Part shown: piece after piece, positions 57,920 to 61,700 of the stretch
How positions within the stretch are numbered: the stretch's first letter is position 1
Layout: each line of letters opens with the position of its first letter
NCBI GenBank assembly: GCA_949298825.1
Contig: CASFYB010000003.1
Location: 62,001 to 126,000 of the forward strand
Length of the DNA: 64,000 bases
Reading direction: 5' to 3'
Origin: an uncultured Helicobacter sp.
GTDB taxonomy: Bacteria > Campylobacterota > Campylobacteria > Campylobacterales > Helicobacteraceae
Translations under genes and position numbers: made by a program
The notes under the pieces: generated by a model
Database searches by the model: none
The model's input: only the letters and a program-made list of their open reading frames with translations
Told to the model about the DNA's origin: nothing

Positions 57920-58360
57920 ATGCAGGATTTTTATGTACTTTTTTTGATCATTCATTTATTTTGTGCGATTATTTTTGTTGGCTATTTATTCTATGATGTG
58001 GTGTTTGTCAGGATTGCTAAAAAGCGATTTTTAAAAAACAAGATTGACCCTAGTTCATTTTTTGAAACTATTGGCGGTGTGATCTCAAGATTTATGCCCT
58101 TTGTTGTTTTGCTGCTTTTTATAAGTGGAGGGATTTTATCATCTAGCTATTTGAAATCAGAATCTTTTGGCATGATGAAAGCTTTGTTATTAGCTAAGAT
58201 TGCTTTGGCTAGTTTGATTTTCTTGCTTGTTATTTTTTCTCTTAGTTGTCATTATATTTTTAAATGCAAGAATCCTTTAGGAAGATTTATTCATCCTATC
58301 GTGCTTAGCATTGCTATTGCCATAATTTTATTGGCCAAATTGATGTTTTATATTCAGTAA
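57920..58360 (+). CDS. CopD-like four-helix membrane protein
   Basis: A 146-aa inner-membrane protein with four hydrophobic segments (about 3-26, 51-72, 84-107 and 123-144). His in LIIHLFCAII and Phe/Tyr-rich helix ends are in the style of CopD/DUF2269 family proteins. A histidine in LSCHYIF and another in RFIHPIVL could bind haem or copper, which is inference. The start follows AAGGAG. The last 7 bases overlap the convergent TonB-dependent receptor gene. Confidence 0.6.
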   Translation: MQDFYVLFLIIHLFCAIIFVGYLFYDVVFVRIAKKRFLKNKIDPSSFFETIGGVISRFMPFVVLLLFISGGILSSSYLKSESFGMMKALLLAKIALASLIFLLVIFSLSCHYIFKCKNPLGRFIHPIVLSIAIAIILLAKLMFYIQ

Positions 58361-60441
58361 TGATATATAAAACGCAGGCCAAAATTAAATGGGGCATTAG
58401 TGATATAGGCACGACCTTGACTATCCCAAAGTGCTGTGGTAAAGATGCGGGTATTAGTTAGATTCTGTGTATAGAAGATAAGCTGATAATGCTTTAAAAA
58501 ATCATAATTTATACTCGCATCCAAAGTGGCATAGGCTTTTTGGATGAGATCTTTTTCGTGGTTAAAATCATCTAGGAAATACGAGCTTTGTGTATTGAGT
58601 AAAAAAGAGAGGCTAAGACTTTGTTTTTCCTTTTTTAGCATGGTGATATCAATGCCTGCATTGAGGCTAAAAATAGGAGCAAACTTTGGTATAAGGCCAG
58701 AGAGATTATAGTTGCCTGTTTGTCCTAGTATCGTGATGCTTCCTATATTTTTACCCCCCTGGCTGAATCTAGATGCATTGAGATTGGTATTGATAAATAT
58801 ATTTAAGATCTTCCAGTTTAGACTAAGATTTGCATCCAGTCCATATGCATAGGCACCGCCAATATTTTTGATGCTTTTATAATAGCCTACACCCACATAG
58901 CTTTGCACATCATCTCGCCAGATACCATATAAGGCGACTTTAAGCCATCCCTTTTTTTGCGCGAAGTGAGTTTGTATCCCTAGCTCTGTGCTATAGATAG
59001 ATTCTTCAAGATAGGGGATGGTATCTGTATCTGCAAAAGGAAATTTAGCAAATCCTCCTGGCTTTGTAGTGCTTGAGGCTTGCAAGTAGATCCTGCTTTG
59101 TTTTAAATCATAAGATAGAAGTAAAAATGGATTAAACGCATGAAAGATTTGGCTATTACTATAGGGGCTTATCTCTGTGATGGGTGGTTTTTTAGATTCT
59201 ATATAGTTGTGAAAAAACTGATAGCGAGCTCCTAGATTGAATCCAAAATGTTTTTTCTGATAGCTAAGTGCACCAAAGAGAGCAAAGCTATTTATACTCT
59301 CTTTTGCATTCCATGTACCAAAGTATCCTAGAGCGCTTGTATCTACGCCATTCATGCCATTATCTAGCAATAAGTATTTATAAAACATCCCCCATGTACT
59401 TTTGAAATCATGATGATGCCCCTCAAGTCTAGCTTCAGAGATTATTTGTGTAGTATTGTAATAATAGCCTTGTGAATGTTCATCTTTGACATAGATTCCT
59501 GGATATTCATTAGCCAAGGATGTAGCCTTTTGAATAGCAGTGATGAGATTAAAGTCAAAATTTTTTATTCCATGATCAAGTTTTATAGAAGCATTATGGG
59601 TTTGAGCATAGTTATAGGGATTGATATTTAGTATTTTATCCTGCTCCCCATTTGTAAAGTCACTCCAGCTTGCAAGATCATCTGCTTCTAGTTTGAGGCT
59701 TAGGGCTTGCTTTTTTGTGAGATAAAAGTCTTTATGGCTATTTAAAAGTTGATAGTCATAATGTGTTGTTATAATCGTAGAATCTAAAATCTGTGCATAT
59801 AAGCTCCCTCCTACAATAAGAGAATCTGCATTATTTAAAAGTTTGTTGCTATGGCGTATGTATCCATTATCATGGATATACTGTGTGCTTATTTTCCCCC
59901 AAAGTTTATTTTTGATAAGCTCATTTCCTATGTTAAAACTTATCTTTTCTTGCAATCGGCTAAAAGTGGCTTCTGATAAAATATAGTTGCCTTGCATGGG
60001 GTTATGTGTTTTGATATCTATGATCCCAAGTGGAGCATTCTCACCATAGAGCAGGCCAAGTGATCCGGGGATTATATTAATGCTTTTTATATCACTAAGA
60101 TTTTGGATCAAAAAGTTTGGCGCTTGAGGTATGCCATCTATATAGATACCCAGGATAGATGAGTAGTAGTCAGGACTAGAGATACCACGAAATGAAACCA
60201 TAGGAAAGGTATCTGATCCTTGAGGGTAGATCCTAAGAGAAGGGATGATTTTATGGATATCTACAGTTGAGTTGATAAGATATTTTGTGCTCTCTTTTTC
60301 AGAGATGCTATCTTTATTTAGCATAGATTCTAGGCTTGCTTCTTGAGTGGCCATCGCTTCTATGGAATCTAGATTTTTTGATTCTATATTATCTGCTTGT
60401 AAGATTTGTAGTATAGAGATAGATAAGATTGCTTTTTTCAT
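58354..60441 (-). CDS. TonB-dependent outer-membrane receptor under TPP riboswitch control (probable thiamine-compound importer)
   Basis: A 695-aa receptor. The signal peptide is KKAILSISILQILQA (cleavage near residue 16). The plug domain spans about 35-150 and includes VDIHKIIPSLRIYPQG, MVSFRGISSP and NIIPGSLGLLYGENAPLGIIDI (split here only by wording). The rest is a 22-strand barrel pattern ending in aromatic residues (RFIYHY). I use the ATG at 60441, which follows AAAGGG at six bases. The leader carries a TPP riboswitch (60495-60581), so the likely cargo is thiamine, its phosphate or a precursor. No thiamine gene is adjacent. It converges on the CopD-like gene with a 7-base overlap. Confidence 0.85.
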   Translation of the reverse strand: MKKAILSISILQILQADNIESKNLDSIEAMATQEASLESMLNKDSISEKESTKYLINSTVDIHKIIPSLRIYPQGSDTFPMVSFRGISSPDYYSSILGIYIDGIPQAPNFLIQNLSDIKSINIIPGSLGLLYGENAPLGIIDIKTHNPMQGNYILSEATFSRLQEKISFNIGNELIKNKLWGKISTQYIHDNGYIRHSNKLLNNADSLIVGGSLYAQILDSTIITTHYDYQLLNSHKDFYLTKKQALSLKLEADDLASWSDFTNGEQDKILNINPYNYAQTHNASIKLDHGIKNFDFNLITAIQKATSLANEYPGIYVKDEHSQGYYYNTTQIISEARLEGHHHDFKSTWGMFYKYLLLDNGMNGVDTSALGYFGTWNAKESINSFALFGALSYQKKHFGFNLGARYQFFHNYIESKKPPITEISPYSNSQIFHAFNPFLLLSYDLKQSRIYLQASSTTKPGGFAKFPFADTDTIPYLEESIYSTELGIQTHFAQKKGWLKVALYGIWRDDVQSYVGVGYYKSIKNIGGAYAYGLDANLSLNWKILNIFINTNLNASRFSQGGKNIGSITILGQTGNYNLSGLIPKFAPIFSLNAGIDITMLKKEKQSLSLSFLLNTQSSYFLDDFNHEKDLIQKAYATLDASINYDFLKHYQLIFYTQNLTNTRIFTTALWDSQGRAYITNAPFNFGLRFIYHY

Positions 60442-60447
60442 CAAATG

Positions 60448-60475
60448 CCCTTTAGATAAAGTGGCAAATGAAGGG
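60448..60475 (-). promoter_or_regulatory. Candidate ribosome-site-sequestering hairpin
   Basis: On the minus strand CCCTT (60471-60475) can pair with the ribosome site AAAGGG (60448-60453) of the receptor gene, with a 17-base loop. It lies directly between riboswitch and start codon, so it could be the expression platform controlling translation. The pairing is short and unproven. Confidence 0.35.
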
Positions 60476-60494
60476 TGGTAGTAGATTTTGAAGT

Positions 60495-60581
60495 GGTCCC
60501 GACGCTGGCATTATCCAGATCCGGTGCGGTCAAAGTCTGCGCTTACTCTCAGCCAAAAGGCTCCCGTCACTTGCAGGGGAC
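60495..60581 (-). ncRNA. TPP riboswitch (THI element)
   Basis: The minus-strand RNA has all the core landmarks of the thiamine pyrophosphate aptamer. P1 is GTCCC with GGGAC at its two ends. GGGAGCC, a TTTT loop and GGCTGAGAG give the first sensor arm, with the invariant CTGAGA at 60547-60552. The second arm is ACCGGATCTGGATAATGCCAGCG, which matches the invariant GATCTGG-TAAT-CCAGCG core (split here only by wording). It ends 53 bases before the receptor start and points the same way. The riboswitch's own promoter must lie in the first tens of bases on the xerH side. Confidence 0.92.
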
Positions 60582-60626
60582 ATTATGCCATAAATGCTAA
60601 AATATTTAAAAATTTTGGAGAAGGCA

Positions 60627-61700
60627 ATGAGATATGCTTTAAATAGTAGTGGCGATGAACTAAAAGATATGCTGCTTTGGATATGTAGATATTTACGTTA
60701 TAAAGCCACCACACTATCTAATAGGCTTGTGCATGATCGTGAGATTTTTCAAAACGAGTTAGAGAATCTATCCTCTAATATCAATAGCAAAAATGATTTA
60801 GAAAAAAGTATTAAAAGATTGAGAAATATAGGACTAATAGGTATTAATACTTATGCCAAACCTCTTTTAGCCCTGCTAGATTTTTTAGAGAAAAAGACAA
60901 AGTTTAGATTGATTGATATTGATGATGAGATGTTGAGCGATTTTTTGGCTATTCATACAAGTACGCTTTCTATGCAAAGTAGGAAAAACTATCGCATGGC
61001 CCTGCTAAATTTTTTTAAATACATAGATGAGAATCAAGATTCTAAAAATGCTCATATTTTTGGGATCAAGCTTGAGATAAACTCTCTTAAAAGTTTGAAA
61101 TCAAAATTGCCAGCCTATCTTAAAGAAGATGAGATTAAAGCTTTTTTATCAGCACTAAAAACTTTTCCATTTTCACCAAAATTGAGAGCTAGAGATATGC
61201 TTATTATTTTGCTGATTATGCATACAGGAGCTAGGGTAAGTGAGATTTTGCTTTTAGAAAAAAAGCATTTTGTAATTAATGAAGATCTGTGCTTGCTTCA
61301 TATCATCGGCAAGGGTGGGAAGTCTCGCAATGTCGCTGTATTAAAAGAGACAATAAGCCAGCCCCTAAAAGCTTGGCTTTTAACTAGAAACAAGTTTAAA
61401 GATATCAAAAATGATCTTTTATTTTGTAATCAAAAAGGTGAGGCTCTATCTCAAGCCTATGTGTATAAAAATCTCAAGAGTATTTTGCAATATGCAGGTA
61501 TTAAAAAGCCAAAAATGGGAGCGCATTTATTAAGGCATTCTTTTGCCACACTTTTGTATCAAAAGCATAAAGACCTGATCTTAGTTCAAGAGAGTTTGGG
61601 GCATGCAGATTTAAATACAAGCAGAATCTACACCCACTTTGATAAAGATCAGCTAAAAATCACAGCATCACTTATCCCCAATGTGGATAAGACAGATTGA
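60627..61700 (+). CDS. xerH: Tyrosine recombinase XerH
   Basis: Single-subunit Xer recombinase of Campylobacterota that resolves chromosome dimers at difH. Catalytic residues are visible: Arg in TGARVSEIL, Lys in GKGGKSRNV, His-Arg in HLLRHSFATLL, His in LGHADLNTS and the nucleophile Tyr in SRIYTHF. I start at the ATG at 60627 (357 aa), which follows GGAG. An ATG at 60594 lacks a site. It diverges from the receptor and its riboswitch. hsdM begins 58 bases downstream. No obvious dif-like site was found beside it. Confidence 0.92.
   Translation: MRYALNSSGDELKDMLLWICRYLRYKATTLSNRLVHDREIFQNELENLSSNINSKNDLEKSIKRLRNIGLIGINTYAKPLLALLDFLEKKTKFRLIDIDDEMLSDFLAIHTSTLSMQSRKNYRMALLNFFKYIDENQDSKNAHIFGIKLEINSLKSLKSKLPAYLKEDEIKAFLSALKTFPFSPKLRARDMLIILLIMHTGARVSEILLLEKKHFVINEDLCLLHIIGKGGKSRNVAVLKETISQPLKAWLLTRNKFKDIKNDLLFCNQKGEALSQAYVYKNLKSILQYAGIKKPKMGAHLLRHSFATLLYQKHKDLILVQESLGHADLNTSRIYTHFDKDQLKITASLIPNVDKTD

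Follow-up and report, generated by a model that had tools for sequence, protein, structure and literature searches.

A TPP riboswitch aptamer precedes a FyuA-like TonB-dependent receptor, a predicted thiamine importer, in thiamine-auxotrophic Helicobacter

In the literature found by our search, which left subscription papers largely outside, a TPP riboswitch has been reported in Helicobacter only upstream of pnuC, in H. pylori (PMC2258182, PMC8322730), while the C. jejuni riboswitch precedes thiC (PMC3847290). The stretch of DNA analyzed here, 64,000 nucleotides of contig CASFYB010000003.1 from an uncultured Helicobacter sp. (GCA_949298825.1) and referred to below as the window, comes from a relative of bird Helicobacter. 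Its sequence suggested a switch of the same class, in the same phylum, placed instead on the gene for a TonB-dependent outer-membrane receptor (Table 1). Which compound does this receptor import, and how would TPP control it? The best explanation, which we consider very probable, is that a TPP riboswitch controls a single-gene TonB receptor through which a thiamine-auxotrophic lineage of Helicobacter takes up thiamine, either intact or as a phosphate. This substrate prediction goes beyond the iron, nickel, and cobalamin set that is usual for TonB receptors in Helicobacter work.

Table 1. Features of the receptor gene and its leader (window positions)
Feature	Position	Strand	Basis
TonB-dependent outer-membrane receptor, 695 aa, FyuA-like, predicted thiamine receptor	58354..60441	(-)	Pfam Plug, E 9.8e-9
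Predicted sequestor hairpin UGCC-A-CUUU / AAAG-GGCA, burying the Shine-Dalgarno sequence	60446..60466	(-)	Folding prediction
Shine-Dalgarno sequence AAAGGG, 6 nt 5' of ATG	60448..60453	(-)	Read from sequence
Putative anti-sequestor strand (CCCUUCAUUUGC)	60464..60475	(-)	Complementarity in all nine receptor leaders
P1 5' strand and P2 start (GCAAGUGACGGG), alternative partner of the anti-sequestor strand	60563..60574	(-)	-16.1 kcal/mol duplex with 60464-60475
TPP riboswitch aptamer	60479..60577	(-)	RF00059, 52.2 bits, full length
-10 box CATAAT; transcript start at about the aptamer 5' end	60582..60587	(-)	Read from sequence

The sequence-only reading had placed an aptamer core on the minus strand directly before the receptor gene and had proposed an Infernal search with the TPP model. 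That search returned a match to RF00059 with the expected coordinates and strand. The match spans all 105 model positions (E = 1.2e-9 in a local scan of the window) and is the sole TPP match at E ≤ 10 in the 1.42-Mb genome (E = 1.3e-9 in the genome-wide scan). In the full-length alignment, the window aptamer has the conserved core and secondary structure of the TPP riboswitch (CUGAGA, GAUCUGG, P1 to P5), and the helices are kept in 13 related aptamers, with three pairs changed on both sides. The score counts against the assignment, as it is 2.1 bits short of the Rfam gathering score of 54.3. This score is a curation limit, and the aptamer is missed by a default Rfam scan of the window, which returns tRNAs only, because it scores below that limit; an E-value scan detects it. 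Aptamers at the same locus in relatives score above 54.3 (G100, 58.6; G094, 58.4; G095, 57.3; G093, 55.3; G092, 54.7; G099, 54.6). From these alignments, we conclude that the window leader holds a genuine TPP aptamer in the correct orientation, which is predicted to bind TPP.

TPP matches were found in 32 of the 121 Helicobacteraceae genomes searched, and three kinds of gene lie behind them: pnuC/pnuT followed by thiamine pyrophosphokinase, thiC, and the window-type TonB receptor. The same type of aptamer lies closely upstream of an orthologous receptor in nine genomes of two genera. The window's genus contributes five of its six genomes (the window genome, G096, G098, G099, and G100) and a second genus contributes four (G092, G093, G094, and G095). 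The aptamers of the receptor leaders, including that of the window, are of the type seen before thiC in the related genomes G052, G084, G085, and G087 and are unlike the pnuC type. The sixth genome of the window's genus, G097, is equally auxotrophic and gave no receptor match, a point against the proposed function; its TPP switch precedes its pnuC-like gene instead. In G092, the receptor gene (L058:6941-9133 (-)) contains an in-frame stop that divides it into frames of 261 and 458 aa, through either gene decay or an error in sequencing, and this too counts against the explanation.

Thiamine gene content was assessed by family searches of the 121 genomes, on which the gene losses described here rest. 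ThiC is present in 90 of them but is missing throughout the window's genus and the second genus, each with six genomes. ThiE is present in 108; the window's genus again lacks it throughout, and within the second genus only G093 has it. The best ThiE match in the window genome is a 53-position fragment under the cut-off (E = 0.004). Among the nine genomes with both aptamer and receptor, ThiC is absent from all nine and ThiE from eight. Fisher tests uncorrected for ancestry associate the receptor with the absence of ThiC (P = 1.8e-6) and of ThiE (P = 1.2e-8), although the independent evidence is far below these values because just two genera are involved. ThiE joins HMP and thiazole; without it, a cell can neither make thiamine de novo nor assemble it from salvaged HMP and thiazole. 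The absence of ThiC and ThiE from these genomes therefore means that finished thiamine or its phosphates must be imported.

A route for such import can be assembled from the remaining gene content. All 12 genomes of both genera encode a PnuC-family transporter. In the window genome, its gene lies directly 5' of a thiamine diphosphokinase gene (TIGR01378, above the cut-off) on a separate contig, C8, and has no detectable TPP switch in the genome-wide scan (E ≤ 10). NCBIfam names the transporter PnuC; its reading as a thiamine-specific PnuT rests on the kinase neighbor and the literature (PMC5613172). TonB is represented by two TonB_C matches above the cut-off. The receptor would carry intact thiamine or thiamine phosphate across the outer membrane, the PnuC-family (PnuT-type) carrier would pass thiamine across the inner membrane, and thiamine pyrophosphokinase would then make TPP. 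Uptake of a thiamine compound through a TPP-controlled receptor, as put forward from the sequence alone, is thus supported jointly by the conserved aptamer, the missing ThiC and ThiE, the transporter and kinase pair, and TonB. It would make this a clade wholly dependent on imported vitamin B1, in which the outer-membrane step is the one detectable TPP-regulated step of the window genome.

The same reading had listed a precursor among the possible substrates, and this part fares worse. TPP switches govern precursor transporters elsewhere, and the receptor genes of G094 and G095 are followed after 9 to 14 nt by a gene for an NCS2 nucleobase/xanthine-type permease (L057:10506-11864 and L050:4805-6148), which is probably under the receptor's TPP switch. 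No NCS2 gene is present at the window locus, and precursors could not be joined in the eight of nine genomes that lack ThiE. Because the enzyme that joins HMP and thiazole is absent, import of either precursor is unlikely, and we regard the alternative as a whole, in which the receptor takes up a precursor or a degradation product, as very unlikely.

The receptor gene itself is intact, with its ATG at 60441 and its stop at 58354-58356, and it stands alone behind the aptamer, with no pnuT or thiamine kinase gene in the operon. Its product has an N-terminal plug domain (PF07715). Pfam gives no match to a C-terminal barrel in this protein, and the AlphaFold model (mean pLDDT of 69.9, mostly 80 to 90 in the barrel) aligns over its length with TonB receptors, indicating on structural prediction that the receptor has a C-terminal beta-barrel. 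A sequence search of the PDB matched only FyuA (4epa), the ferric-yersiniabactin receptor (E = 1.7e-23), and Foldseek likewise ranks FyuA first for the model (E = 5.9e-29; TM, 0.73/0.79). The two proteins are therefore related in sequence and fold, but they are only about 19% identical in the fold alignment, and the window receptor differs in its TPP control and in having no siderophore genes nearby.

A maximum-likelihood tree groups the eight TPP-linked receptors that it covers from Helicobacteraceae in one clade (support, 100/100). Its sisters are non-TPP receptors of G042 (H. saguini), G089, and G060, beyond which receptors from Ruminobacter branch off. A TPP aptamer was not found at the three sister receptors or at two Ruminobacter-like loci. 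The receptor genes of G042, G089, and Ruminobacter adjoin siderophore-type genes, namely, those for AraC regulators, RhtX/FptX-family MFS carriers, and/or YbtPQ-like ABC half-transporter pairs. Together with FyuA as the nearest solved relative, these neighbors favor an alternative in which metal or siderophore import remains the receptor's task and the TPP switch only couples that import to thiamine status. However, genes for siderophore import or its regulation are absent beside the window receptor, whose neighborhood holds genes for a tyrosine recombinase and a small membrane protein together with Clp-type genes, and siderophore-type neighbors are likewise absent at the other TPP-linked loci. 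Furthermore, the TPP-linked receptors are a clade of their own and are confined to genomes without ThiC. This lineage makes no thiamine, so the iron demand of thiamine synthesis would not explain the control. We therefore find continued metal or siderophore import quite unlikely.

For a receptor of thiamine, the tree suggests recruitment from a FyuA-like siderophore lineage rather than membership in an established thiamine-receptor family. We have moderate confidence in the fuller evolutionary account, in which a yersiniabactin-type siderophore receptor took on vitamin B1 as its substrate in Helicobacteraceae auxotrophic for thiamine, by way of a thiC-type TPP riboswitch and separately from the thiamine TonB receptors that other Campylobacterota carry. 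The locus would then offer a testable case of substrate change from siderophore to vitamin that can be compared with close non-TPP sisters.

Those other receptors were found in five genomes of other Campylobacterota families (G286, G290, G317, G330, and G377). As in the window, a TPP aptamer lies directly 5' of a TonB receptor gene; unlike it, the receptors belong to a separate lineage, are about 25% identical, and are followed in their operons by either thiBPQ (thiB equivalog above the cut-off) or a pnuC-family gene and a kinase-like gene. A single family comprising all TPP-linked TonB receptors of the phylum was rejected (common clade, AU test, P = 9.3e-6), indicating recruitment at least twice. 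On this phylogenetic evidence, we conclude that TPP control of TonB receptors arose at least two times in the Campylobacterota, and one of the two origins has independent operon evidence for thiamine.

Several further TPP-linked arrangements were seen in the phylum. An aptamer, a TonB receptor, and thiBPQ or pnuC-like genes occur together in G284 as well as in the five genomes named above (L203/L215, L210/L216, and L211-L214), and some of these loci add a protein of 84 to 92 aa; one such protein was searched and had no Pfam match. In G318 and G299, a TPP aptamer lies directly 5' of a gene for a TRAP-type (DctP-like) substrate-binding protein (L164; L208:2445-3491 (-)), a possible candidate for a thiamine-related transporter component. 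In G244 (L181), the gene behind the aptamer encodes a 467-aa membrane protein that by eye resembles sodium:solute symporters.

As the sequence-only reading had noted, TPP-regulated TonB receptors are already known in Bacteroidetes, and our literature search, with most subscription papers outside it, found no report of one in Helicobacter, where only the pnuC switch appears. The known case is OMthi (BT2390) of B. thetaiotaomicron, a TonB-dependent receptor preceded by a TPP riboswitch, for which genetics show a part in thiamine acquisition: a mutant that lacks both it and the biosynthesis operon needs more thiamine (PMC5613172). In most gut Bacteroidetes, OMthi shares a single operon with pnuT and tnr3, an operon that is split in B. 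thetaiotaomicron (PMC5613172). Compared by description, OMthi resembles the window receptor in being a TonB receptor behind a TPP riboswitch and differs in that its host makes thiamine, whereas the window host is an auxotroph with a lone receptor. A 2009 cluster analysis had placed predicted thiamin TonB receptors, assigned by colocation with PnuT, in several separate clusters, one of them in the yersiniabactin-receptor region, and names no Helicobacter in its main text (PMC2771747). The window receptor is likened to these by description, and its own assignment comes through the TPP aptamer.

The leader also suggests how TPP might act. The aptamer ends about 40 nt upstream of the receptor gene, and a TATAAT-like box is equally spaced from the aptamer in most related leaders. 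In all nine receptor leaders, a strand located between the aptamer and the start codon offers a pairing partner for the P1 5' strand together with the P2 GGG. Dinucleotide shuffles matched this duplex in 9 of 1,000 cases for the window, 0 of 1,000 for G098 and for G094, and 1 of 1,000 for G099; it is weak in G096, where 107 of 1,000 shuffles equal it, which counts against the proposed control. The hairpin predicted to sequester the Shine-Dalgarno sequence was equaled by 1 of 300 shuffles in the window and is strong in most leaders, with G100 and G093, where it is ordinary, as a further point against. With the aptamer removed and the platform folded alone, the predicted unpaired probability of the window Shine-Dalgarno sequence drops to 0.02 from 0.58 in the whole leader. 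The minimum free energy of the whole leader is not unusual relative to shuffles (z = -0.47), so the argument stands on the two competing elements and not on total stability.

Since the leaders can form either the pairing of the anti-sequestor with the P1 strand or the hairpin hiding the Shine-Dalgarno sequence, these folding models predict that control is probably translational OFF by TPP. At low TPP levels, the P1/P2 5' strand would bind the anti-sequestor strand, leaving the Shine-Dalgarno sequence exposed and the receptor translated. When TPP is plentiful, the aptamer would keep P1, and the freed anti-sequestor strand would join the hairpin that buries AAAGGG, turning translation off. Alternatively, the aptamer could be real and the control transcriptional, or the receptor uncontrolled. 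This would fit the B. thetaiotaomicron TPP-linked receptor, whose transcript barely responds to thiamine (PMC5613172), and the unequal strength of the platform folds between leaders. A constant mRNA level is equally compatible with translational control, however, no U-run terminator was seen between the aptamer and the ATG, and the anti-sequestor complementarity is retained in nine of nine leaders, all of which makes this alternative rather unlikely.

Two neighboring genes in the window share their placement with H. anseris (L054). A divergent tyrosine recombinase gene (60594-61700 (+)), XerH-like by eye, begins 7 bp from the receptor -10 box, so that the sequence upstream of it runs antisense to the aptamer, an arrangement that H. 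anseris retains. Convergent with the receptor gene, 57920-58360 (+) encodes a predicted membrane protein of 146 aa with no family match in Pfam or NCBIfam, and a homolog occupies the equivalent place in H. anseris (L054:10580-11017).
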